Positions 41,873 through 64,000 of a stretch of DNA of 64,000 nucleotides are shown one piece after another (the stretch's first letter is position 1; the number at the start of each line of letters is the position of its first letter). Location of the stretch: assembly GCA_016191815.1 (NCBI GenBank), contig JACPVI010000061.1, positions 62,001-126,000 on the forward strand. Direction: 5' to 3'. Position numbers and translations under genes: made by a program. Source of the DNA: Myxococcales bacterium (GTDB taxonomy: Bacteria; Myxococcota; Myxococcia; Myxococcales; Myxococcaceae). Below the pieces are notes generated by a model. That model was not told the DNA's origin and did not search any database. It saw nothing but the letters and a program-made list of their open reading frames with translations.

Positions 41873-44368
41873 GTGAAGAAGAAGCTGGCGCTGATTCGAC
41901 TTCGCTTCGCCCGGAGCTGGAAGGTGATGGTCGGGGTGTCCCTGGTGGGCACCGCCATCGCAGTCGGCGGCTGGGAGCTGGACCTGCTCGGGATGCGCGG
42001 CGCCGAGCTGGGCGCGTACGACGACGGGCTCAACGCCTTCACCAACAAGTCCTGGTTCCCCTGGGGCCAGGCTGGGCGCTCGAAGGACATCGTCATCCTC
42101 GCCATCGATGACAAGACTTTCGAGCAGGTGTCCCTGAACGAGAGCTACAAGCTCAACTACGGCTCCTGGCCCTACTCGCGGAACGTCTGGGCCCACGCCT
42201 TCACCCACCTGGTGGACGAGGGCGCGAAGATGGTGGTCTTCGACGCCGTCATCGACGAGCCGCACACCGACCCCTCCGGCGACCTGGCGATGGCCCAGGT
42301 GATCGGCGAGAAGAAGGTGCCCTTCTACCTGGGCTTCTCATGGCGCCCGAAGGCCAGGTCGCTGCCCAAGGTGGAGCCGAAGAACCGCCTCCCCGAGCCG
42401 CCGGTTTTGGGCGCTCCGCCGGGTCCGAAGGCCGCCGAGCCGGCCAAGAAGGAGAATGGCAAGGGCCAGTCCGAGCGCGGCGAGACCAAGGCGGCCAAGG
42501 CGGCGCCCAAGCCGGCGGAGGAGGAGTTCCCCTCGGAAGAGTTCCCCTCCGCCGAAGCGCCCGCCACGGAGGAGAAGCCCAAGGAGGCGGACGACAAGCT
42601 CCTCCAGGTGGCCCAGGCGTTGTCCTTCCCGGTGCTCCCCCAGGGGGGCCTCTCGCTCACGCAGATCGAGCCCACCGAGCTGGTGGACGACGAGGGAAAG
42701 CCGACCGGCAAGCAGGAGCCGCAGCACCCCATTCCTCCCTTGGAGCCGCTCTTGGGGGTGACTCCCGGCTTCGGGGCGGTGACCCTGGAGGACGACGACG
42801 ACGGGAAGATGCGGCGGACCCGCTTCGCCTACACCGACGGCAACAACACCTACGCCACCATGGCGCTCTCGGTGGTGGCCGACTTCGTCAAGGCCGAGCG
42901 GGTGGTGATCGAGCCGGGCAAGCTCACCATCGGCAGCCACCTGGTGCCGATCAACCGGGACGGGAGTGCGGAGATCAACTACGGCGGCAAGCTGGACGCG
43001 CGCTTCAAGACGGTGAGCCTGATCAATGTCCTCGACGACTTCGCCAACAAGCAGTCCGGCCAGCCGCGCAAGGAGGCGATGAAGGACGTCTTCAAGGACA
43101 AGATCGTCCTCATCGCGGGCTTCGCGGTAGGCACCGCCGACGTGAAGCCCACGCCGTTCAGCAACAACTCGCCGGGAGTGGTGAAGCACGCCGCGGAGAT
43201 CGACAACCTCCTCCACGGCGCCTTCATCACCGAGGCGCCGTACTGGATGTCGGTGCTCCTGGCGTTCCTCACCGCCTTCTTCTCGGTGATGCTGATCACC
43301 GTGGTCCGCTCCACCCTCTTGGAGATCGGCTGGCCGCTGTTGCTCTTCTTCGGCTTCTTCGTCGTCACCGGCTCCTTCCTGGTGATCACCAAGACCCACG
43401 TCCTCTCCGCGATGCCGGCGATGGCGGGCGAGCTGGCCTCGGTGGCGGCGGTGGCCTTCAACCACCTCTTCGCCCGGAAAGACCGCGAGCACTTGAGGGA
43501 GATGTTCCAGGCCTACATGGAGAAGGACCTGGTCGAGCAGATGGTGGAGCAGCGGGAGCTGCCGAGGCTGGACGGCGAGAACTTCGAGGTGACCGCCTTC
43601 TTCTCCGACATCAAGGGCTTCTCCACCATCTCCGAGCAGCTGAAAGCCGACCCGCGCCAGCTGATGAAGCTGCTCAACCGCTACCTGAGCCGGGTGACCC
43701 CGGTGCTCAAGTCGCACGCCGGCTGCATCGACAAGTACATCGGCGATGCGGTGGTCTGCCTCTTCGGGGCGCCCATCCGCAACCAGACCCACGCGGTGGA
43801 CGCCTGCCGGTCGGCGCTGGCGGTCCAGCGGGAGCTCGCGAAGCTCCGCGAGGAGCTGAAGGCGGAGGGGCTCCCCGAGCTGTACACCCGCATCGGCCTG
43901 AACACCGACGTGATGCTGGTCGGCAACATCGGCAGCAAGGACTTGTTGGACTACACCGCGCTGGGCGACGGGATGAACCTCGCCTCCAGGCTGGAGGGCG
44001 CCAACAAGGGCTACGGCACGCTGATCATGATCGGCCCGCGCACCTTCGAGCTGGCCAAGGACGCCATCGAGGCCAGGGAGCTGGACTGGGTGCGGGTGGC
44101 GGGGAAGTCGGAGGCGGTGGCGGTCTACGAGGTGCTCTCCCTCAAGGGCCAGCTTCCCGAGGCCAAGCACCAGCTCCGCGAGCTGTACTCCCAGGCCCTG
44201 GCGCTCTACCGGAAGGCCCGCTTCCGCGAGGCCCTGGGGGTCTTGGCCGAAGCCCACAAGCTGGACCCCAAGGATGGACCCACCCTCGCCTTGGGCACCC
44301 GCTGCAAGAACTACCTGCAGAACCCACCTCCACCGCCGTTCGACGGGGTGATATCGCTCGATAAGTAA
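41873..44368 (+). CDS. CHASE2-domain class III adenylate/guanylate cyclase
   Basis: 831 residues from a GTG behind GGGGGAGG. An N-terminal membrane anchor (about 18-36) leads to a CHASE2 extracytoplasmic sensor (DIVILAIDD, GSWPYSRNVWA, VVFDAVIDE), with a Lys/Glu/Pro-rich insert of about 75 residues after it. Two to three membrane helices (about 460-525) follow, then a cyclase domain with the metal Asp in FFSDIKGFS (D579), DKYIGDAVVCLFG and DYTALGDGMNLASR. A TPR-like tail ends the protein. It turns an envelope signal into cyclic nucleotide and heads a four-gene operon. Confidence 0.9.
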   Translation: MKKKLALIRLRFARSWKVMVGVSLVGTAIAVGGWELDLLGMRGAELGAYDDGLNAFTNKSWFPWGQAGRSKDIVILAIDDKTFEQVSLNESYKLNYGSWPYSRNVWAHAFTHLVDEGAKMVVFDAVIDEPHTDPSGDLAMAQVIGEKKVPFYLGFSWRPKARSLPKVEPKNRLPEPPVLGAPPGPKAAEPAKKENGKGQSERGETKAAKAAPKPAEEEFPSEEFPSAEAPATEEKPKEADDKLLQVAQALSFPVLPQGGLSLTQIEPTELVDDEGKPTGKQEPQHPIPPLEPLLGVTPGFGAVTLEDDDDGKMRRTRFAYTDGNNTYATMALSVVADFVKAERVVIEPGKLTIGSHLVPINRDGSAEINYGGKLDARFKTVSLINVLDDFANKQSGQPRKEAMKDVFKDKIVLIAGFAVGTADVKPTPFSNNSPGVVKHAAEIDNLLHGAFITEAPYWMSVLLAFLTAFFSVMLITVVRSTLLEIGWPLLLFFGFFVVTGSFLVITKTHVLSAMPAMAGELASVAAVAFNHLFARKDREHLREMFQAYMEKDLVEQMVEQRELPRLDGENFEVTAFFSDIKGFSTISEQLKADPRQLMKLLNRYLSRVTPVLKSHAGCIDKYIGDAVVCLFGAPIRNQTHAVDACRSALAVQRELAKLREELKAEGLPELYTRIGLNTDVMLVGNIGSKDLLDYTALGDGMNLASRLEGANKGYGTLIMIGPRTFELAKDAIEARELDWVRVAGKSEAVAVYEVLSLKGQLPEAKHQLRELYSQALALYRKARFREALGVLAEAHKLDPKDGPTLALGTRCKNYLQNPPPPPFDGVISLDK

Positions 44369-44393
44369 GTCGCACCCACGTGAGGAGAGAGGC

Positions 44394-44918
44394 ATGAGAC
44401 GGAAGAGTTGGCTCTTGGCGCTGGCCGCGGCCGTCGCCGCCGCAGGCACCGCCCTGGCCGTCAAGCCGGGCGGCGTCCTGTACATCAAGGCGAAGGGCAC
44501 CAAGCTGATGGAGAGCTCCTCGCCCACCGCCAAGCCGGTGGGACTGCTCCAGCCGGGGCAGGAGGTGACCTGGGACGGCTCGGACCCCTCCAACAAGCAG
44601 TGGCACCGGGTGAAGTTCCAGGGAAAGAGCGGAGTGGTGTTCCAGTCCAACCTCTCTCCCACCAAGCCGCAGATGGAGCTGCTCTCCAAGGGCGGCGGGG
44701 CCGAGGTGGACCCCCAGGCCTTCGCCAGCTCCGGCGCGGCCACCAAGGCGCTCTCCGAGGCGGCGGTGGCCTACGGCAAGGAAGTCAAGGGCGAGGACGC
44801 GGTGAAGCAGCTCCTGGTGGTGGAGGCGATCAGCCAGCAGATCAAGCAGGAGGAGATCAACGACCGCAACAGGAAGGTCGGGCTGTTCACCGTGGCCAAC
44901 GAGGGAGGCGCCAAATGA
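44394..44918 (+). CDS. exported SH3-like protein
   Basis: A 174-residue protein with a signal peptide (WLLALAAAVAAAGTALA) and a bacterial SH3-like domain (YIKAKGTKLMESSSPTAKPVGLLQPGQEVTW, WHRVKFQGKSGVV). Such domains bind peptidoglycan or peptide ligands. The C-terminal half is helical. It starts 25 bases after the cyclase and its stop overlaps the protease start (ATGA). Confidence 0.8.
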   Translation: MRRKSWLLALAAAVAAAGTALAVKPGGVLYIKAKGTKLMESSSPTAKPVGLLQPGQEVTWDGSDPSNKQWHRVKFQGKSGVVFQSNLSPTKPQMELLSKGGGAEVDPQAFASSGAATKALSEAAVAYGKEVKGEDAVKQLLVVEAISQQIKQEEINDRNRKVGLFTVANEGGAK

Positions 44919-46012
44919 TGACGCGTGCGCTTTCGCTGGTCTGCGTGGGCTTCGGCGCCGGGGCCCTCATCTTGCCCTGCGGCGGAAAGGTGAACGTGAA
45001 CGTCGCGCCGCCCAGCATGGGAGAGGCCCAAGCCCTGGCCGAGAAGGTCAAGGAGCTGGACGCGAAGAGGAAGAAGTGCGGCGAGCTCAAGCAGAAGAAG
45101 GTCGCCTACGACGAGGAGTACGCCATCGGCGGCGCGGTAGCCCTGGCTTGGGTGGGCAAGGGCGGCGGCCTGTTCGTGGACCTGCCGAAGAATGCCACCG
45201 CGGAGAGCCTGAGGGACGGCCTCAAGGTGCAGGTGCCCTCCGGCGACCGGCGCGAGCTGCACAAGTATGTGAACCAGGTGGGAAAGAACCTGGGCGCGCT
45301 CTCCTCCCGCCCGGCGCTCAAGTGGAGCTTCGGGGTGCTGAGCGACGACAGGGCGATGAACGCCTTCTCCGCTCCCGGCGGCTACGTGCTGGTCACCAGG
45401 GCGGTGCTCCAGAACGTGGAGAACGAGGCGCAGCTCGCCGGCGTCCTGGCGCACGAGATCGGCCACATCACCGAGCGGCACGCCCTCAAGCTGTACTCCG
45501 GCGTGAAGGCGAACCAGTGCGACGCGGCGGTGCTGGCCGAGGCGGGGAAGGCGGTGGCCGGCACGGTGGTGCACATCGACATCCAATCGGTGAACAGCAT
45601 GCTCGGCTCCCCCGCCGGGCTTCTGGACCTCGACGGGCTGGCCCGCCAGGCCGCCGACAAGGCCGGAAAGATGATGGCCGGCTTCACCGACAAGATCATC
45701 GAGGACATCACCTCCAACGGCTTCGCCCACGACGACGAGTACGCGGCGGACCGGGTGGCGATGGAGCTTTTGGTGGCCGCCGGGTACAACCCCGAGGAAT
45801 ACGTGAAGTTCCTCGGGAAGCTGCCCGAGGCCCAAGGCCTCTGGGCGCACCACCCCAAGAACGCCGACCGGCAGAAGGCCTGCAGGCGCTGGAGAGACGG
45901 CGTCAAGCCCTCTTCGGCGGAAGCGGGCTTCTCGCCCTACGCCGACTGGCCGTTCGAGAAGTATCCGGCGGTGGCGTTCAGGGACGAGCTGAAGGCCGTG
46001 AGGAAGAAGTAG
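44915..46012 (+). CDS. M48-family metalloprotease (exported)
   Basis: 365 residues with a signal peptide (ALILPC lipobox-like). The zinc site HEIGHITERH (H180, H184) and the third ligand in DDEYAADR are intact, and the beta-strand motif AFSAPGGYVLVTRAVL marks the M48 peptidase fold. It resembles BepA/LoiP-type periplasmic quality-control proteases. Its ATG overlaps the SH3 gene stop, and the next gene starts 3 bases after its stop. Confidence 0.9.
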   Translation: MMTRALSLVCVGFGAGALILPCGGKVNVNVAPPSMGEAQALAEKVKELDAKRKKCGELKQKKVAYDEEYAIGGAVALAWVGKGGGLFVDLPKNATAESLRDGLKVQVPSGDRRELHKYVNQVGKNLGALSSRPALKWSFGVLSDDRAMNAFSAPGGYVLVTRAVLQNVENEAQLAGVLAHEIGHITERHALKLYSGVKANQCDAAVLAEAGKAVAGTVVHIDIQSVNSMLGSPAGLLDLDGLARQAADKAGKMMAGFTDKIIEDITSNGFAHDDEYAADRVAMELLVAAGYNPEEYVKFLGKLPEAQGLWAHHPKNADRQKACRRWRDGVKPSSAEAGFSPYADWPFEKYPAVAFRDELKAVRKK

Positions 46013-46015
46013 GCC

Positions 46016-47059
46016 ATGCGGGGCGGCAGCGGGTGCTCGCTCCTCCTGCTCGCCGCCCTCGCCGGCTGCGCGCCGAAGAATTGGGCTCCCAAGCCGAAGC
46101 CGCTGCCCGAGCCCTCCGCGGCAGAGCTTCGTTCCGCCTCGGAGAGAATCAACCGCCTTCACCGCGAGCTGGCCCGCTGTGAGTCGCTCCGGCGGCGACC
46201 GATTCCCTTCGAAGAGGAGCGGCTCATCGGCGAGAAGCGGGCCATCGATTGCGCGCGGGAAAACGGCGGCTTCTGGGTGGACGTCCCGGACGGCCTCTCA
46301 CTCCAGGAGTCGATGGCGCTGCCTTCGCCGCCGGACACCGCGGCAAACCGGCTTCAGCGCTACGTCAACCTGGTGGGGATGAACCTGGGCGCCCAGTCGC
46401 CCCGGCCGACGTTGCCCTGGACCTTCGGAGTCCTCAGATCCGACGAGGCTCGCCTCTGCGTCGGCGCGGGAGGCCTGGTCCTTGTCACCGCCGGCCTCTT
46501 GCGGCTGCTCGAGAACGAGGCGGAGCTCGCCGGAGTGTTGGGAAACGGCATCGGGCAGGTCGTGCTCAAGAGCCATCTCGAAGTGGCGTCGAAGACTCGG
46601 GAAGAACGGTGCCGTCTCGAGCTGATGAGCGAGGCGGGCCGCAAGCTGAACCCGGAGGTGACGCTACAGCTCGCCACGCCCCACGACGAGCGGCAGGCAG
46701 AGACGCTTCGCGCGGCACGCAAGATGTCCGACGAGCTGATGCTCCAGGTGGCGGAGCAGTCCATCGCCGAGTCTGTCGCTTCGCAGCTCGACTGGGAGGG
46801 AGCGGATCGCCTCTCGGCCGAGCTGCTCATCTCCGCCGGGTACGACCCCGGCGAGTACCTGAAGCTTCTCGGCCGGCTGCCGGAGGACAAGGGGCCTGGG
46901 ACGGGCATTCCCCCGAACGCGGGCCGGCAGGCGGCGCTCAGCCGATGGCTCGCCGGGCTCCGCCCCTCCGCCGCGGGCTTCAGCCCCTACGCCGACTGGC
47001 CCTTCCGCCGCTACAAGCGGCCACCGCTCGGCGCCGAGCTGGCCGTGCTCCGGCGTTGA
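46016..47059 (+). CDS. catalytically dead M48 paralogue (lipoprotein)
   Basis: 347 residues with a lipobox (LAALAGC) and a clear match to the preceding M48 protease in the same order: YVNLVGMNLGAQS, WTFGVL, LVLVTAGLLR, LENEAELAGVL, SAELLISAGYDPGEYLKLLGRLPED, FSPYADWPF. The zinc motif is lost: HEIGH reads NGIGQ (positions 177-181), and the third glutamate position is Trp. It cannot be a zinc protease. It probably regulates or inhibits its active neighbour or acts as a decoy or sensor (inference). Confidence 0.85.
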   Translation: MRGGSGCSLLLLAALAGCAPKNWAPKPKPLPEPSAAELRSASERINRLHRELARCESLRRRPIPFEEERLIGEKRAIDCARENGGFWVDVPDGLSLQESMALPSPPDTAANRLQRYVNLVGMNLGAQSPRPTLPWTFGVLRSDEARLCVGAGGLVLVTAGLLRLLENEAELAGVLGNGIGQVVLKSHLEVASKTREERCRLELMSEAGRKLNPEVTLQLATPHDERQAETLRAARKMSDELMLQVAEQSIAESVASQLDWEGADRLSAELLISAGYDPGEYLKLLGRLPEDKGPGTGIPPNAGRQAALSRWLAGLRPSAAGFSPYADWPFRRYKRPPLGAELAVLRR

Positions 47060-47079
47060 TTATGCCTTGTCGGCATAAT
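47059..47079. promoter_or_regulatory. 8-base palindrome before the ATPase
   Basis: ATTATGCC-TTGTC-GGCATAAT is a perfect inverted repeat starting at the stop codon of the M48 paralogue, 24 bases upstream of the ATPase remnant start. A related half-site ATAATA lies at 47090-47095. No T-run follows, so an operator is more likely than a terminator. Similar palindromes flank DUF234-type ATPase genes. Confidence 0.55.
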
Positions 47080-47102
47080 GCTCCGAGAACATAATAGCTC
47101 GT

Positions 47103-48310
47103 GTGGAGCTCCCGTTTCTCGACCGCAGGCGGGAAGTCGTCCGGCTGCGGAGGGCCCTCGGCCGGGGCGGACTGCTCTGCCTCTATGGCCGCCGCCGGCT
47201 CGGCAAGTCGAGGCTGATTCGCGAGCTTTTGGCCAATCGCCCGGCGGTCTACTTCGTCGGGGACGACCGGGACGCACCGCTCCAGCGGGAGGCCGTCGCT
47301 CGCCGCTGCAAGGGCTGGTCGACTCTGACCGCCGGCGCGCGCTCCTGCTGTGCGGCTCGTCCCAGCGGACGATGCAGGGCCTGGTCCTGGATGCCACTTC
47401 GCCGCTCTACGGCCGCGCTCAGGAGATCCTGAAGCTCGAGCCTCTCGGGCTCCGCTCGCTGGCTGAAGCCTTCCACGCCGCTCGACCGATGGAGGCGATC
47501 GACCGCTGGGCGGTGTGGGGCGGCGTCCCCCGGTATTGGGAGCTGGCGCTCGACTACCGCACTCAGCGCAGTGCGGTCCGCGCGCTGGTGCTGGACCCGC
47601 AGGGCCCGCTCCATCGCGAGCCGGAGCGGCTCATCCTCGACGAGCTGGAGGCGGCGACTCGCGCGGCGTCCATCCTCTCGCTCATCGGCCAGGGCTGCCA
47701 TCGGCTCGCCGAGATCGGGGCGCGGCTGGGCCAGCCGGCAACGTCGCTGTCGCGGCCGCTGGCGCGGCTGGTGGAGCTCGGGTTCGTGGTGCGCGAGACG
47801 CCGTTCGGCGCGTCGCACCGGGACGTGAAGCGCTCCTTCTATCGCCTCGCCGAGCCGTTGCTTCGGTTCTGCTACACCTTCGTGGAACCCAACCGCTCGC
47901 GGCTCGCCGCCGGCCAGCTCAGCCAAGTCGAGGCCGAGCTGCGCGCGGCTTGGCCGCGCTACCTCGGGGGCATCTGGGAAGACCTCGCGCGCGGGAGCGT
48001 GGCCCAGATGCGCATCGCCGGCGTCCGATTTGGACCTGCCTCGCGCTGGTGGGGGAAGGGCCTCGACGGCTTGGAGCTCGAGCTGGACTTGGTCGCCGAG
48101 CGGGACGGGCGAGTGCTGGTCGGCGAGGTGAAGTCGAAGCTGGGCGCCTCGGAGATCCCCCGCCGGCTGGAGGAGCTCCGGCGGAAGGCCGAGCGATTCC
48201 CGCTTCTCGCCGGCCGGCAGCTCACCTTGAGGCTCTGGGCGCTCGATGGCCCGAACCTGGCGGAGGTGGTGAGCGCTCGAGACGTCCTCGAGTCTGCCGC
48301 GGACCAATGA
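47103..48310 (+). pseudogene. DUF234/archaeal-type AAA ATPase, internally deleted
   Basis: The N-terminus in one frame carries FLDRRREVVRL and the Walker A LYGRRRLGKSRL, ending near DDRDAPLQREAVA. The remainder is in another frame, from LLLCGSSQRTMQGL through SPLYGR, winged-helix (LARLVELGFVVRE), and a C-terminal nuclease-like domain (VLVGEVKSK, an ExK motif). Between them about 80 residues including Walker B are gone, together with the frame change near 47290-47330. The intact family member would be about 460-480 residues. Likely inactive. Confidence 0.65.
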
Positions 48311-48331: not shown

Positions 48332-49336
48332 TCAGCGCACCACCGCCTGGGCCAGCGCGCGGTGCACTTCCTGGAGCGCCTTCCGCGCCTGGAGCAGCTC
48401 CGAGCGCTCCCGGGTGAGGTCCGCGACCTGGCGGGCCAGGGTGTCGCGCTCTCCGCGGAGCGCATCGGCCGAGCGGCGGAGCCCGTCGGCGTCGCGGTGC
48501 GCCTGCTCCAGCTCGGAGGCCAGCCGCTCCTCCTCGGCGAGGCTCTCCGCGAGCGCCTGGTCCCGCTTCCCGATCTCCGCCTTGAGCGCATCCTGCTCCT
48601 TGGCGGCCGCGTCCAGGCTGCGCCGGGACTCCTGGAGCGCCAAGAGGGCCTCGTCCCGCTCACCCTCCAACGACTCCAGCTCCCGCTCCAGCTCCAAGAG
48701 CAGCTTGGCCCTGGCCTCCATCTCCGCGGAGAGCCTTTTGGCCTCGTCCATCCGAAGCCTCGCCTCCTCGGTGGCGCGCTCGGACTGTCGGCGGGCCGAT
48801 TCCAGATCCTGGGTGAGGGAGAGGTTGAGCGCCTTGAGCTTGGAAAGCTCCGCCTGCAAGGAAGAGATGCGCTCCACCGCGAGCACCCCGGCCTCGGCCA
48901 CGGTGGGCGGCAAGGGCTCGGGGCGAGGGTTTTCCTTCACCGCCGCCAGCCGCTCGCGCAGCTTCTCCCTCCGCTCGCGGGCGTCCTGGGCCGGGTCGGC
49001 CAAAGGCGCGGGCGTCTGCACCTCCACCATGGGGGAGGGAGGCTCCGCGGTGGCTCTGGGCGGCCCTTCAAAGAGGGCGCGCTTTACTGCCTCCACCGCC
49101 GGAAGCTTGGGGGAGCGGGAGCGCTCGGCCCGCGCCTTCACCTCGACTGCCAGCACCGCCTCCGGCTCGGGCTGCGGAGCGCGGAGCACCGCCTCCTCCT
49201 TTGGAGCCGGCGGCGCGGCGGAGGCGGGCTCGCTCCCTTGCAGCTCGGCCTGGGCAGAGGCGGCCTCGGGGAAGATCGCCCCGAGCCTCAGGCGGGGCTT
49301 GGCCCGGGAAACGTTCTGGTCGAATGCCTTCTTCAT
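48332..49336 (-). CDS. pomX: PomX: coiled-coil activator of the PomZ ATPase
   Basis: 334 residues. The N-terminus MKKAFDQNVSRAKPRLRLG has Lys13 and Arg15, the two residues reported as essential in Myxococcus xanthus PomX for stimulating PomZ ATPase; this also fixes the start at 49336 (behind GAGGTGCAC). Residues about 25-150 are Ala/Pro/Glu-rich and disordered; from about 155 to the end the chain is one long coiled coil. In M. xanthus PomX scaffolds the nucleoid-bound cluster that positions FtsZ. It ends a pomY-pomZ-pomX operon. Confidence 0.88.
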   Translation of the reverse strand: MKKAFDQNVSRAKPRLRLGAIFPEAASAQAELQGSEPASAAPPAPKEEAVLRAPQPEPEAVLAVEVKARAERSRSPKLPAVEAVKRALFEGPPRATAEPPSPMVEVQTPAPLADPAQDARERREKLRERLAAVKENPRPEPLPPTVAEAGVLAVERISSLQAELSKLKALNLSLTQDLESARRQSERATEEARLRMDEAKRLSAEMEARAKLLLELERELESLEGERDEALLALQESRRSLDAAAKEQDALKAEIGKRDQALAESLAEEERLASELEQAHRDADGLRRSADALRGERDTLARQVADLTRERSELLQARKALQEVHRALAQAVVR

Positions 49337-49357
49337 GTGCACCTCGGTATGCGCGGC

Positions 49358-50308
49358 CTAGCCCGCGCGCATCTTCTGTGCGCCCTCTCGCGCCGAAACC
49401 AGCCGGGAGAGCACCAAGTCGATGAGCGCCTGGACGTCCTGGGCACCCTTGCAGTCGCGGTCGGCCACGAAGACCGGCACCCCCTCGCTGGAGGCCTGAG
49501 CGAACTTGGTGCACTGCCGGACCACCTTGGGCAAGAGGTAATCCGGGTAGTGCTCCTTCAGCGCCTCCAGCGCCTCCTTGGCCAGCTTGAAGGTGGCGTT
49601 GAAGGAGTTCACCACGATGAAGACGTGGTCCAGCACGTGGCCGAGGTCGTCCTCCAAGGACTGCACCGTCTCGAAGAGCAGCTTGAGCCCGTGGAAGGAG
49701 AGGAAGTCGGCCAGCACCGGGACGAGGAGGTCGTCCGAGGCCATCAGGGCGTTCAGGTTCAACAGCCCGAAGGAGGGCGGCGCGTCGAAGACCACCAGGT
49801 CGTACCGGCCCTCCACCTCCCGAAGCGCGTTCTTCAGCTTGAACTCCCTCCCCGCCATCGGCATCAGCGAGAGGTCCATAGTGCTCATCGAGAGATTGGA
49901 GGGGATGAAGTCCAGGTTGGGGAGCGGTGTCTTCTGGATGACCTGGGAGACGGGGACTTTCCGCACCAGCACGTCGAGCAGGGTGCGCTCGAACTCCTCG
50001 CCCTCGTAGCCCAGGCACTTGGTGGCGTGGCCCTGGCTGTCCAGGTCCACCACCAGGACTTGGTAGCCCATCTCCGCCAGCCGGTAGGCATAGGAGGTGG
50101 AGAGGGAAGTCTTCCCGGTGCCGCCCTTGAAGTTGAGGAAGAGCTGCTTTCGGTTTCCCACCGAGGGTGGGTGCTGGGCCAGCTTGTCCCGCAGCTCCCA
50201 CACCTCTTCGGCGGAATAGCTCTGCTTGTCCATCGCCGCGGCGAGGGCCTTGGCCGGCACCTTCAACATCTCGGCGGCCAACCTCGCGCTGTAGACGGGA
50301 GGGTTCAT
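49358..50308 (-). CDS. pomZ: PomZ: ParA/MinD-type ATPase for division-site positioning
   Basis: 316 residues with a deviant Walker A FKGGTGKTSL. Starting from the second of two adjacent ATGs (MNPPVY), Gly62, Lys66 and Asp90 fall at the positions mutated in M. xanthus PomZ studies (G62, K66, D90). VVFDAPPS is the Walker B-like strand. The N-terminal 50 residues resemble the small helical domain of ParA-type proteins. PomZ binds DNA as an ATP dimer and carries the PomX/PomY cluster to midcell. Ribosome site GAGAGGTGA. Confidence 0.9.
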   Translation of the reverse strand: MNPPVYSARLAAEMLKVPAKALAAAMDKQSYSAEEVWELRDKLAQHPPSVGNRKQLFLNFKGGTGKTSLSTSYAYRLAEMGYQVLVVDLDSQGHATKCLGYEGEEFERTLLDVLVRKVPVSQVIQKTPLPNLDFIPSNLSMSTMDLSLMPMAGREFKLKNALREVEGRYDLVVFDAPPSFGLLNLNALMASDDLLVPVLADFLSFHGLKLLFETVQSLEDDLGHVLDHVFIVVNSFNATFKLAKEALEALKEHYPDYLLPKVVRQCTKFAQASSEGVPVFVADRDCKGAQDVQALIDLVLSRLVSAREGAQKMRAG

Positions 50309-50318
50309 CATTCACCTC

Positions 50319-51755
50319 TCAGGCGGCGAAGAGCTTCGCCCCGCGCCGCACCACCTGGCCCCGGGCCAAAAGTAGCTCGCAGGCCTCGCGCACCGCGGCC
50401 GGCTCCACCCCCGCGGCCGCCTCCAGCTCGGGAAAGCTGCGCCCGCGGATGGCGGTGCGGATTTCCACCAGGAGCTTCGCGCACAGCTCCTCGGAGACGA
50501 GCCTCGGCGGGGCCTGGGGCTCGGCGGCGGGTGGGGTGGGCAGCGGCTGCGGCGGCAAGAGCGGCAAGGAGGAGAGCCTCCGCACCTCTCGCCTCCTCTG
50601 GGCTTCGTCCATCTCCACCACCGGCGAGAGGTCCTCCCCCAGCAGCCGGGAGAGGCTCTGTGCCCCCGCCTGGCGCACCCTCTTCTCCGGATCCCTGAGC
50701 GCCGAGAACAGGCACTCCTTCGCCTGCTCCGCGCCGGAGGCCCCCAACACCAGCGCGGCCAGCCGGCGGACCTCCGGGTCCTGGTCGGCGATGGCCTCCG
50801 CTCCCAGCTTGCGCGCCGCCTCTCCGGAGAGGGAGAGCGCCAGCAGCGAAGCCCTCCGCCTCACCGCGCGGTCGGGGTCCTTCATCGCCGCGGCGAGGTG
50901 CGGCCCGGCCCTTTGGGGGTCGATGGCGAGCAGCGCCTTGAGCGCGGCCATCCGCACCCCGGGCAGCCTGGACTGGAGCAGGGGCGCCACCACCGGCGCC
51001 CCTTCCTCCTTGGCGAAGTGGGCGAAGCTCGAGAGCAGGGCCACCTGCACCTGCGGCTCCGCCTCCGCGTGGAGGGCGGTGGCCAAAGCCGGCGCCGCCG
51101 CCGGATGGCCGAGCGCGGTGAGCCGCTCCGCCGCCCGGACGCGCGCGGACGGCTCCAGGGCGGAGAGCTCTCTCACCGAGAAGCCGAACAGCGTCTCCTC
51201 GGTGCGGCCGATGAAACCCTCGCCCCCGGACAGCTCCTCGAGCTGGCGCGCGGAGACGCCGAGCCGGCCCTCGGCCATGAGCCGCTCGGCGTGGTGGGCC
51301 ACCCCCGAGGAGCTGGAAGCCGCGGCCACCGCGAGCGCGGGCGCGTCTTGCTTGGCCGACGCCTGCTCTCGCTTGGCCAAGGCTTCGCTGCGCAGCTCGG
51401 CGATGAAGCGGGCCAGGTCGAACTGCTCCTCTGCGGAGCGCGCCTGGCCGGCGTCGTGGATGCGGGCCGCCTCCAGAAGCTTTCCGATGAGCTCGGCCCG
51501 CTCGGCGCGCAAGGCCTCGTTCATCCGCCTCAGCTCCTCCCGCTCAGCGTGGGCGCGGCCGGAGCGCACCTCCAGCTCCGCCACTTGCCGCCGAAGCTCT
51601 ATCTCCCGCTGCGCCGCCTGGGCCAGCTCGAGCCGCAGCCGCTCGCCCTCCGCCTTCGCCGCGCCGAGGTCGTTGGCGAGCTGCTCCGAGCGCGCCTCGA
51701 AGTACACGATCTTCTCGAGCGCGCTCCTAAGGAGCGCTTCCGGCCGTTCTTCCAT
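50319..51755 (-). CDS. pomY: PomY-like: coiled coil plus HEAT repeats
   Basis: 478 residues. The N-terminus is a coiled coil (about 1-110; EALLRSALEKIVYFEARSEQ, LRRMNEALRAERAEL). HEAT-like repeats follow (about 185-380; VRAAERLTALGHPAAAPALATALH, VRMAALKALLAIDP). PomY in M. xanthus has the same two parts and then a long Pro-rich C-terminus; here only a short Pro-rich linker (LPPQPLPTPPAAEP) leads to a helical, winged-helix-like C-terminal domain. It is therefore shorter than the 682-residue M. xanthus protein. First gene of the operon, divergent from the pseudokinase. Confidence 0.8.
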   Translation of the reverse strand: MEERPEALLRSALEKIVYFEARSEQLANDLGAAKAEGERLRLELAQAAQREIELRRQVAELEVRSGRAHAEREELRRMNEALRAERAELIGKLLEAARIHDAGQARSAEEQFDLARFIAELRSEALAKREQASAKQDAPALAVAAASSSSGVAHHAERLMAEGRLGVSARQLEELSGGEGFIGRTEETLFGFSVRELSALEPSARVRAAERLTALGHPAAAPALATALHAEAEPQVQVALLSSFAHFAKEEGAPVVAPLLQSRLPGVRMAALKALLAIDPQRAGPHLAAAMKDPDRAVRRRASLLALSLSGEAARKLGAEAIADQDPEVRRLAALVLGASGAEQAKECLFSALRDPEKRVRQAGAQSLSRLLGEDLSPVVEMDEAQRRREVRRLSSLPLLPPQPLPTPPAAEPQAPPRLVSEELCAKLLVEIRTAIRGRSFPELEAAAGVEPAAVREACELLLARGQVVRRGAKLFAA

Positions 51756-51985
51756 CAAGGCCTTCGACACCCTCCCGGATTCAGTCGAAGCGTACAGCCC
51801 TGTAGCGGCTTGTCGCCTTTTTGGCCGCCCCACTCTAGTCCCCCCACGGCGTGCCCGTAAACCATCGAAACTTATGGGCTTATCCCTATGCTTTCCGATT
51901 GAGGCCCGGAGACGCTCCGCGGCCGATTTTTCGGCCTCGGCGGCGTTTTGGCGCTCGAGGAGGTAGCCTCGGGGCGGGTGGAGGG
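51756..51985. other. divergent promoter region between pomY and the pseudokinase
   Basis: 230 bases with no coding evidence. It is less GC-rich in places (AAACTTATGGGCTTATCCC) and should hold the promoters of the pom operon and of the pseudokinase. No clear palindrome was seen. Confidence 0.5.
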
Positions 51986-54085
51986 ATGTCCCCGGAGCCA
52001 TTCGGCGAGTATCGGCTGTTGGAGAAAGTGGCGGAGAGCGCCACCGGCGAGCTGTTCCGGGCGGTGCGCGCGGGGGCACCCGAGCCGCTTGCGCTGGAGC
52101 GAATGCACCCGGAGCTGAGCCGCGACGCCGGATTCCGGGAGGTGTTTCTCTCGGACGCGGAAGTGGCGAAGGGCCTCTCTCACGAGTGCATCGCAAGCGT
52201 GGCAGCTATCGGCGAGCGGAATGGGAGGCTGTTCCTCGCGCGGCCGTGGGTGGAAGGAGTGAGCCTGGAGGAGTTGCTCCCGCGGGCCATCGAGGAGAAG
52301 CTCGCTCCCTTCTCCGCCGGCCTCGCCGCGCGCTTGGTGCTCCCAGTCTCTCGCGCGCTCCGGCACGCGCACTCCCAGAAGGTGCTGCACCGGGGAGTGT
52401 CCCTCTCCAACGTGCTGGTGTCGTTCGACGGAGAGGTGAAGCTCGCTGGCTTCGGAATGGCCCGGGCCAGGCTCCGGGTGGCGGGCGCCGCGAGGCCATT
52501 CCTCTCGCCGGAGCAGGCCCGCGGCCGCGAGGTGGACGCCCGGAGCGACGTCTTCGCCGCTGGCGCCACGCTCTACGCGCTCGCCTGCGGCCGGCTTCCG
52601 GTGCAAGGGGACGAGGGCGATCGGCTCTCCCGCATCGCCACCGGAGAGCTGGACCCGCCGCGCGAGGCCAACCCTTCCATCGACCCTCAACTGGAAGGAG
52701 TCCTGCAGCGCGCGCTCGCCCTCTCACCCGATGGCCGCCCTTCCTCGGAGGAGCTGACCTCCGCGCTGGAAGAGCTCGCCAGGCGCGAACAAGCCGACGG
52801 GCCGGCCAAGGTGGTTTCCCAGCTCTTCCCCGACCGGAAGCGGCCGAGGCGAGGGCAAGCAGCGCAGGCGATCGCGAGCGCTCCGGCCCAAAGCCCTCGA
52901 GCCGACCGCCCGCGGGCCGGGCCATTTCGGATTTGGCCCTGGGCATTGCTTGGGGCGGCCGGGCTTGTCGCCGGCGGCTACTGGCTCGAGCGGCCAGAGC
53001 CCACCTACTCGCTCCTGGTCACCTCCGAGCCGGCCGGAGCGCAGGTGCTGGTGGACGGCAAGCTTCGAACGGGGGCGACGCCGCTCACCCTGCAAGGGCT
53101 CTCCGCGGACCGGCATCGGCGAATCGAGTTGGTGGCCAGCGGCTACCTTCCTTTCTCGCGGGAGCTGGAGCCGTCGATGAAGCACCTCCACGCGCGGCTG
53201 GAGGCGCGAGGGTCGCCGGCCGAGGCGAAGGAGCCGGCGGCGATGGCGCCGATCCCCTCCGCGGAGGGCGTCGCCTTCGATGCCGAGGCGCCTCCGGTGA
53301 AGGTGACGCTCTCGTCCCGGCGCCACTCGGTGCACATCCCCTCGTCGCGCGCGCTGCGGATTCCGCTCAATCTGCTCTCGCACTACACGGTCTCCGCCTC
53401 GGGCTCGGCGACGCTGGATCTGGTGGATCCGGCGCTGGCGGCTCAGCAGTCTGGCCGCGGGCGTTCGCCGCCTTTCGACCAAGACTCGCGGAAGCGGAGC
53501 GGCGCCTGGCGGCCGGAGGCTCCGCGCCCGCCGGGGCTCATCTCCATCCTGCGGCCCGAGGCGAGGCGCATCTTTTACATGCTCGAGCAGCCGCCGGCCC
53601 ACGGAGGCGAATCGTTCGGCCAGCTCGGCGGTTCAGCGGTGAAAGTCGGCCGCGCCACCCTCCTCTATGCATTCCTGCTCACCGACCGCGCGCAGCAATA
53701 CAACGCGGGCACCTTCCAGGTGGCGGTGGTGTCCGAGGACGGGAAAGAGGTCTACCTGCTCGACGCTCGAGAGCATGCGGTGTACGTCGCCCCGGAAGAC
53801 CGCTTCCTCATCCGGCGGCTGGATCCGGAAGCCTCCTATCGAATCGGGCTGTCGTCCGACGGCGCCGCGGCGGTGGCGGCGGTCTTCACTCCCGACGGCT
53901 CGCGCCCGCTTTGGCTGGATGGGTCTCCCACCGCCGAAACGCAACACCTGCTCGGCACCGGGAGGCACACCCTCTCGGGGGCGAAGTCCCTCTGGCTGAC
54001 CTTGCCGCTGCTCGGCCAGGAGGAAAACTCCGCCGCGGGCATCGAGCTGGAGGTCGCGCGCCTCGCGTCGCAGCCGCCCCGCTGA
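51986..54085 (+). CDS. pseudokinase with PEGA domain (membrane anchored)
   Basis: 699 residues, start behind GGAGGG. The N-terminal 290 residues have the Hanks-kinase fold but have lost the catalytic residues: the glycine loop reads VAESATGE, the VAIK lysine is Glu (LALERM), the catalytic loop is HRGVSLSN (Asp lost) and DFG is GFG. A membrane helix (about 310-328) and a PEGA domain (SEPAGAQVLVDGKLRTGATPL) follow, then a beta-rich extracytoplasmic region. It probably senses envelope state and signals by binding. It is divergent from the pomY gene. Confidence 0.88.
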   Translation: MSPEPFGEYRLLEKVAESATGELFRAVRAGAPEPLALERMHPELSRDAGFREVFLSDAEVAKGLSHECIASVAAIGERNGRLFLARPWVEGVSLEELLPRAIEEKLAPFSAGLAARLVLPVSRALRHAHSQKVLHRGVSLSNVLVSFDGEVKLAGFGMARARLRVAGAARPFLSPEQARGREVDARSDVFAAGATLYALACGRLPVQGDEGDRLSRIATGELDPPREANPSIDPQLEGVLQRALALSPDGRPSSEELTSALEELARREQADGPAKVVSQLFPDRKRPRRGQAAQAIASAPAQSPRADRPRAGPFRIWPWALLGAAGLVAGGYWLERPEPTYSLLVTSEPAGAQVLVDGKLRTGATPLTLQGLSADRHRRIELVASGYLPFSRELEPSMKHLHARLEARGSPAEAKEPAAMAPIPSAEGVAFDAEAPPVKVTLSSRRHSVHIPSSRALRIPLNLLSHYTVSASGSATLDLVDPALAAQQSGRGRSPPFDQDSRKRSGAWRPEAPRPPGLISILRPEARRIFYMLEQPPAHGGESFGQLGGSAVKVGRATLLYAFLLTDRAQQYNAGTFQVAVVSEDGKEVYLLDAREHAVYVAPEDRFLIRRLDPEASYRIGLSSDGAAAVAAVFTPDGSRPLWLDGSPTAETQHLLGTGRHTLSGAKSLWLTLPLLGQEENSAAGIELEVARLASQPPR

Positions 54086-61965: not shown

Positions 61966-64000
61966 ACTCGGCGAAGTACCTGGATGCGCGGATCCGGGCC
62001 GCCCAGGGTGACGAGGCGGGTGCGGAGCGAGCCGCCCAGGCCGCGCTGACCCTGACCGCAGCCGACATGATGAACCACGCGGGTGCCTGGAGCAGCAGTG
62101 GAATGACGAAGCTCTTCCGGGGCGACCTGGAGGGCGCCACCGGGTGCTTCCGGAGGGCCCTGAGCGTGGCCTGGAAGAACTCCATCACCCAGGAGTACTG
62201 GGTGGTGGCGATTCCGGCCCTCGCCGAGGCGGCGGTGCTCCAGTGTCGCTCCTTGGGCGCCTCGAACCGAGCGGCCTTGGCTCGCGCGCTTCGCCTGTGC
62301 CGGTTCGCGCGACTCGTGCCGCTCGTCTATCCGGTCTACGGGCCGATGGCACACCGCGTCTCGGCGATGGCCTACGCCCTCAAGGGAGACCTGCGCCGCT
62401 CCCGGCGCCACCTGGAGCGGGCGACGGCCGAGGCCGCCCGGCTGAGAATGCAGCTCGAGGTGGCCAGGATCCACCAGGTCCGGGGTGACCTGCTGCCGGC
62501 GAGCGATCCCCGCCGCCAGATGTACTACGAGCTGGCTGGGGCGAACTATCGCCGGCTGGGGGCGCTGGCCCTGCTCAGGAGCCTCCCCGCGGAGCACCAA
62601 GAGGTCGACGAGCCCTCTGGCTCGAGCAGCCTCAGCGGAGGGGACGGTGAGTTGCAGACCCCGGGCAGACCTCCCTCCAAGTCGGACCGTAGGAGCGAGC
62701 TTTCGCTCGATTGGCTGGTGCAGATCGCCCAGGAGATCGGGAAGCTCGGGGAGCCGACGAAGCTCCAGGAGGAGATTCTCCGCGTGGCGACGGAGCAGAC
62801 CGGCGCCCAATCGGGCTGCATCTTCCTCTACAATCCTGAGAAGGAGCCTGACCCGGGGCTGCCCAGGGGACTGACGCGGGTGGCGAGCTACGTGCAGGGC
62901 GAGGCGGCCTCGCTCCTGCCGAGCACCAGCGTCCTGGAGCAGGTGCTCCGGACGCGCGACCGCGTCATCGTGGGCGACGCCCAGGAGGATCTCTCCGGAG
63001 CGCGCAGCGTGATGCTCAGCAAGAAGCGCTCGCTTCTTTGCGCCCCCATGGTGGTGGGCAGGCGGATGGTGGGGCTGCTCTACCTCGAGAACAACCTTCT
63101 CTCCCGGGTCTTCTCCGCCCGAGACCTGGAGGCGGTGGGCATTCTCTCGGCGCAGGCGGTGATCGCGCTGGAGAACTCCTCCTATCTGGCCAAGGCCCGC
63201 GAGGCACACCGCAGCGAGTACGCGCTGCGGCGGCTGTTCCAGAGCTACGTGCCGCCAGCGGTGGTGCACGAGGTGCTAAGGCGCAACCACGAGGGCATGC
63301 TCAAGGGTGAGCGGCGGGTGCTCACGGCCCTCTTCGCTGACATTCGCGGGTTCACCGGCCTCTCGGAGGAGCTCGATCCCGAGCAGCTACTGGTCCAGCT
63401 CAACGAGCTGTTCGCCGCGATCAGCGAGGTCATCAATGATTGCCACGGCATCGTGGACAAGTTTATCGGCGACGCGGTGATGGCCCTGTTCGGCGTGCCC
63501 AACTCCCGGGGGAACGACGCACTCAACGCGGTGACCGCGGCGGTGCGGATCCAGCAGGCGGTCCGCAAGATCAACGCCCGGAGCGCCACCGCCGGCCGGC
63601 GGCCGGTGGCCCTGGGGATCGGCGTCAACAGCGGCGAGGCGGTGGTGGGGAACGTGGGCTCCCAGCAGCGGATGGAGTACACCGCCGTGGGCGACACCAT
63701 CAATCTGGCCTCCGGCGTGGAAGCCACCACCTCCACCTACCGCACCGGCATCCTCATCACCGAGCACACCCGCGTCCATCTGGGTGAGGCGTTCGGCGTG
63801 CGGCAGCTCGAGAGCATCCGGGTCGGGGGGCGAGCCAGGCCGGTCAGGCTCTACGAGGTCCTCGGAAGGAGCGAGCAGATGGACCCGGATCAGGCGGCGC
63901 TGCTCGAGACGTTTCAGAGGGGGCTTGGCGCATACGAGCAGGGGGAGTGGCTAAAGGCGGAGTCGGCCTTCGGCGAGGTGATCCGCGCATGCCCGCAAGA
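61851..64000 (+). CDS. giant kinase C-terminal part: TPR-GAF-adenylate cyclase (runs off edge)
   Basis: The continuation of the same gene in the frame one base earlier, open to the window end. It begins ADLHFGWIHQLRGELSQAR, carries helical repeats, a GAF domain (about 62720-63190; LDWLVQIAQEIGKL, GCIFLYN, VVGRRMVGLLYLEN), and a class III cyclase (ALFADIRGFTGLS, DKFIGDAVMALFGVP, YTAVGDTINLAS). Joining the two parts needs one extra G or C near TGGCCGATC. The cyclase residues are intact. A TPR-like helix starts at the end. Either a sequencing error or real inactivation. Confidence 0.75.

Follow-up and report, generated by a model that had tools for sequence, protein, structure and literature searches.

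Why should a membrane receptor with a cyclase output be encoded directly ahead of an exported SH3b protein and two M48 proteins, one of them catalytically dead? The window analyzed here, a 64,000-nucleotide stretch of a Myxococcales genome, contains such a unit on its plus strand, and the initial annotation had read it as a four-gene functional module. The layout that it described was correct in coordinates, strand and gaps, the last being 25, -4, and 3 bases when read directly from the window sequence. The identities that it had assigned (CHASE2 cyclase, exported SH3 protein, intact M48 protease, dead M48 protein) agree with Pfam matches, AlphaFold models, and active-site residues. Third-codon GC content is 0.96, 0.94, 0.94, and 0.87 for genes 1 to 4, a strong bias in all four.

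The first gene (41873-44368, + strand) encodes a CHASE2 receptor cyclase of 831 aa, with a GTG start preceded by GGGGGAGG. Pfam places CHASE2 (PF05226, E = 5.2e-37) at residues 40-468 and a class III cyclase domain (Guanylate_cyc, PF00211, E = 1.4e-16) at residues 572-748. An N-terminal transmembrane segment precedes CHASE2 and hydrophobic stretches at residues 455-508 follow it, so that CHASE2 lies between membrane segments. Domain content and hydrophobicity together suggest an inner-membrane protein with CHASE2 in the periplasm and the cyclase in the cytoplasm. The class III catalytic set of two Asp, Lys and Thr for adenine, Asn, and Arg is complete (D579, K621, D625, T695, N702, and R706), is invariant in the homologue alignment (A6), and is matched in PDB relatives including 3r5g, the structure of CyaB, which is the nearest solved cyclase. 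Because the set is complete and matches CyaB, adenylate cyclase is the likelier reading, and the predicted product is likelier to be cAMP than another nucleotide. CHASE2 of this protein contains a low-complexity insert of approximately 90 residues. The idea that the insert is peculiar to this receptor found no support, as CHASE2 matches of 385-429 residues also occur in the genome's two other proteins with this domain.

The second gene (44394-44918, + strand) encodes an exported SH3b protein of 174 aa, with a signal peptide, a predicted SH3b domain at residues 28-87, and a helical C-terminus that carries a conserved SSGAATKALSE motif. Its own match to SH3_3 in Pfam falls below the cut-off (E = 0.012; 16 bits against 27). 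The AlphaFold model has a pLDDT of 77, with most of the SH3 region above 90, and its best Foldseek matches are bacterial SH3 domains (E = 2.6e-3). The predicted SH3 fold is supported by the model as well as by relatives that score above the SH3_3 threshold. Orthologues of the gene adjoin an M48 gene in most genomes of the family.

The third gene (44915-46012, + strand; Pfam PF01435, E = 8.1e-27) encodes an M48 metalloprotease whose HExxH motif and downstream Glu zinc ligand are intact (HEIGH at 180-184, with H180, E181, and H184, and E275 as the third ligand). Its lipobox-like N-terminus with C22 suggests that the protease is probably anchored as a lipoprotein. Two cysteines, C55 and C202, are retained in all 26 M48 copies that were aligned, whether live or dead, and likely form a structural disulfide. 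BepA and LoiP are M48 quality-control proteases of the Escherichia coli envelope, and NCBIfam describes the third gene product as BepA/LoiP-like, far below the cut-offs. The score against the BepA family (M48_BAM_BepA) is 78 bits for a cut-off of 570, and the protein lacks the TPR domain of BepA. The likeness lies in the M48 fold of genes 3 and 4 and in the HExxH of gene 3; among solved structures, the best relatives of both proteins are BepA (6ait) and the Geobacter-type 3c37. Unlike BepA and LoiP, the third gene is encoded with SH3 and CHASE2 partners.

The linkage of these three genes was examined in full-genome searches of 195 genomes from the window's phylum. SH3 matches were found in 91 of them and M48 matches in 107, some of the latter being of BepA type only. 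Forty loci were fetched from the family and phylum, representing about two dozen genera, and the cyclase, SH3, and M48 genes lie in that order on one strand in 38. One exception (L036) is a contig that begins inside the unit, and the other (L069) is a stray SH3 gene with a dead M48 gene. For L069 a loss of the cyclase from its genome (G146) was considered and rejected, since another contig ends in a fragment of the orthologous cyclase; the stray genes are probably a second, degenerate SH3-M48 pair. The first M48 copy keeps HExxH in all 40 loci except L069. Two of the 38 ordered loci (G011 and G016) lie outside the family but within the phylum, and their M48 proteins fall among the family's sequences in the tree, which may reflect transfer or misbinned contigs. 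Start codons of the relatives were chosen near the preceding stop, and their overlaps of -4 or -1 are therefore partly built in, while those of the window are direct observations.

Controls within the phylum point the same way. Twenty other M48 loci, mostly BepA-like, had no relative of the cyclase or of the SH3 protein within approximately 5-7 kb (0 of 20). Likewise, no SH3 or M48 relative lies within approximately 1.5 kb on each side of the genome's two other CHASE2 genes. The genome of 6.77 Mb has only three genes for CHASE2 proteins and four for M48 proteins, so a chance encounter of the two is very improbable, and its repetition still more so. Absence is also shared: eight family genomes lack the SH3 protein and a full-length M48, and in seven of these the orthologous cyclase is missing too, the best matches being at paralogue level. 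As three of these are small genomes from a single genus, the seven absences represent fewer than seven independent events. The eighth genome (G061) has kept the cyclase and lost both partners; the receptor can evidently manage without SH3 and M48 there.

The fourth gene (46016-47059, + strand) stands apart from this pattern. Its Pfam match to Peptidase_M48 (PF01435, E = 1.8e-4) scores 21.8 bits, just over the cut-off of 20.3, and H180, E181, H184, and E275 of the live enzyme are replaced by N177, G178, Q181, and W260, turning HEIGH into NGIGQ. Judged by sequence, the protein is dead, as all four catalytic and zinc-binding residues are lost. It retains a good lipobox (LAGC18) and the two family cysteines, and its AlphaFold model (pLDDT 82) finds the M48 structure 3c37 as best Foldseek match (TMt 0.68), consistent with a preserved M48 fold. 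Moreover, the gene is still coding in character, with third-position GC of 0.87 compared to 0.94 in gene 3. The window's own live M48 is its nearest row in the M48 tree, which fits a tandem duplication. Tandem dead copies occur only in the window, L045, and L061 among the 40 fetched loci; live second copies occur in L056, L065, and L043, those of L056 and L065 representing a separate duplication in the tree. A single clade of dead copies was not rejected (p = 0.36-0.47), with long branches involved. The rarity of tandem dead copies led us to reject the dead paralogue as a core, co-conserved part of the module; it is an accessory, a lineage extra outside it. The proposed four-gene module thus held for the cyclase, SH3, and M48 genes, given their order in 38 of 40 loci, their recurrence across phyla, their co-absence, and the control, and failed for the fourth gene. 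The dead protein may serve as a decoy, regulator, or scaffold. In L043 (G102), a further SH3-M48 pair follows cyclase-SH3-M48 in tandem.

The initial annotation had suggested surveying whether homologues keep this gene order across Myxococcota, and the linkage survived that survey; moreover, the trio is not special to the phylum. A query of genome contigs with the single M48 protein sequence gave no match, and an alignment-based M48 scan of the contigs was used instead. The best 80 loci were listed, and 79 were examined, as one (L072) is on the same contig as L032. Neighbors were counted if they lay on the strand of the M48 gene and no more than 1.5 kb away. Among these 79 best M48 matches, SH3 and CHASE2 genes accompany M48 in at least 29 loci, CHASE2 without SH3 in at least four, SH3 without CHASE2 in at least 27 (about a third), and neither in 19. 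The loci are the best M48 matches, and their counts hence show recurrence rather than frequency. Three of the 29 trio loci are myxobacterial records (L073-L075), and the others among the matches listed include Nitrospira (Nitrospirota), Planctomycetota, Desulfuromonadales, Neptuniibacter, Chitiniphilus, Thiobacillus, and other beta- and gammaproteobacteria. The group with CHASE2 only, among the same matches, includes three loci from Acidobacteriota and one cut by the contig start. The middle gene of the cross-phylum loci matched SH3_3 in all nine cases tested, eight of them above the cut-off and up to 39.8 bits.

Gene order and receptor output both vary among these matches. The order is SH3-M48-cyclase in Thiobacillus and relatives (L107, L142, L147, and L148, among the matches listed), and in at least eight loci (L104, L114, L119, L131, L135, L137, L143, and L145) the CHASE2 receptor beside SH3-M48 is not a cyclase. 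The C-terminal domain of these receptors, of approximately 150 residues, is apparently undescribed, has a GxQxGxWxLF motif, and matched neither a Pfam family nor the cyclase profile in the seven of eight that were scanned. A hidden cyclase in this region was rejected, with an hhalign probability of 0.5%. Furthermore, at least four Nitrospinota loci among the matches listed have an Amidase_2 gene beside SH3-M48 and no receptor, which hints at a cell-wall connection. Given the receptor-free loci and the Amidase_2 neighbors, the SH3-M48 pair has work of its own.

The statement in the initial annotation that no named system has this make-up held in the literature searched, where no description of a CHASE2-SH3-M48 trio was found. 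The ligands of CHASE2 domains are largely unknown (PMC5192318), and the trio is apparently a recurrent, undescribed partner set for this receptor domain; a pair of exported partners that is fixed across phyla offers a direct handle on what CHASE2 senses. In Sinorhizobium meliloti, the response of the CHASE2 cyclases CyaD1, CyaD2, and CyaK depends on NsrA, a protein of the outer membrane (PMC13001267). That system resembles ours as proposed here in that a CHASE2 cyclase relies on another protein of the envelope as the first point of contact with the signal. It differs in that NsrA is a predicted beta-barrel, and no protease or SH3-M48 partner is described there (PMC13001267). The BiofilmReg operon of Burkholderia contaminans encodes a CHASE2 histidine kinase, an exported LysM/FecR protein, and a response regulator (PMC5192318). 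Here too the gene for a CHASE2 receptor is accompanied by one for a small exported protein of a kind that binds the wall, but the output is a histidine kinase, the partner is LysM/FecR, and there is no M48 (PMC5192318). By analogy, these two systems appear to be the nearest functional parallels to the module. CyaA of Myxococcus xanthus is reportedly a receptor-type adenylyl cyclase, and its gene presumably lies upstream of mokA. Unlike that presumed arrangement, the window cyclase precedes SH3-M48 and then pom genes.

The linkage of cyclase, SH3, and M48 is well supported; the direction of signaling, the role of the protease (sensor, effector, or housekeeper), a physical complex, and the ligand are what we infer. 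The reading we favor, at roughly even confidence, is an unnamed and ancient envelope-to-cytoplasm module in which the CHASE2 receptor takes its state from the SH3/M48 pair in the periplasm. Both partners would be exported to the periplasm and made in a fixed unit with the receptor. The SH3 protein would most likely be the bridging ligand or adaptor, binding the cell wall or a periplasmic or outer-membrane client, and M48 would act on the SH3 protein or on the same client. M48 or the wall would determine the state of the SH3 protein; CHASE2 would read that state and switch the cyclase. The original suggestion that damage is sensed by proteolysis and reported by cyclic nucleotide fits the predicted inner-membrane receptor, the exported partners, and a protease of BepA/LoiP kind. 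Its wider form is more tentative, and we lean somewhat against it: a widespread system where the state of CHASE2 is controlled by a dedicated protease of the periplasm together with an SH3b adaptor, outputs are interchangeable (the cyclase or the domain of approximately 150 residues), and a cyclic nucleotide reports proteolysis in the envelope. If true, it would link envelope proteolysis to cyclic-nucleotide signaling via genes that stay together through reordering and output swaps.

Other accounts must be weighed against the favored one. The protease could lie downstream, with the CHASE2 cyclase sensing another cue (such as osmotic stress) and SH3 and M48 being co-expressed envelope-repair effectors with no direct control of the receptor. 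We regard this as unlikely but worth keeping in mind: at least 27 of the 79 best loci listed have SH3-M48 free of a receptor, at least four of these beside Amidase_2, and the passage of PMC10544341 that cites Kimura (2002) ties the M. xanthus cyclase CyaA to osmotic stress. However, effectors have no need to remain with a single receptor type across so deep a divergence or to stay linked after reordering, and receptor and pair are jointly absent in seven of eight genomes. A further proposal gives M48 and SH3 a role in the maturation, folding, or turnover of the CHASE2 receptor and none in signaling. Receptor-free pairs weigh against it, and so do the genome's two other CHASE2 proteins, whose genes have neither an SH3 nor an M48 relative within approximately 1.5 kb on each side. 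That proposal draws on the similarity to BepA/LoiP, though below the NCBIfam cut-off, and on the low-complexity insert in CHASE2, which could be a cleavage site; we consider it improbable. Finally, an operon of convenience, with unrelated genes co-transcribed in one lineage, is very hard to credit. As a general account it is refuted by recurrence across phyla, permuted order, the clean control, and co-absence.

Downstream of the unit, a promoter-like site at 47067 lies ahead of a DUF234/HTH ATPase-type gene (47078-48310, + strand), which separates the module from the pom genes. This gene may be frameshifted, its first part seemingly in another frame at 47103-47432. The next genes (48332-52196, - strand) encode a coiled-coil protein, a ParA ATPase, and a HEAT-repeat protein in the order of pomX, pomZ, and pomY, which are mxan_0636, mxan_0635, and mxan_0634 (PMC7993993). 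Order and domains suggest that these are Pom proteins, and in about 20 related loci pom-like genes follow the module, encoded on the other strand. By synteny with pomX, the orthologues of the module in M. xanthus DK1622 would be expected beside that gene, at about mxan_0637-0639. Close to the right-hand edge of the window is another class III cyclase domain (63135-63998, + strand), and its visible part has no CHASE2.
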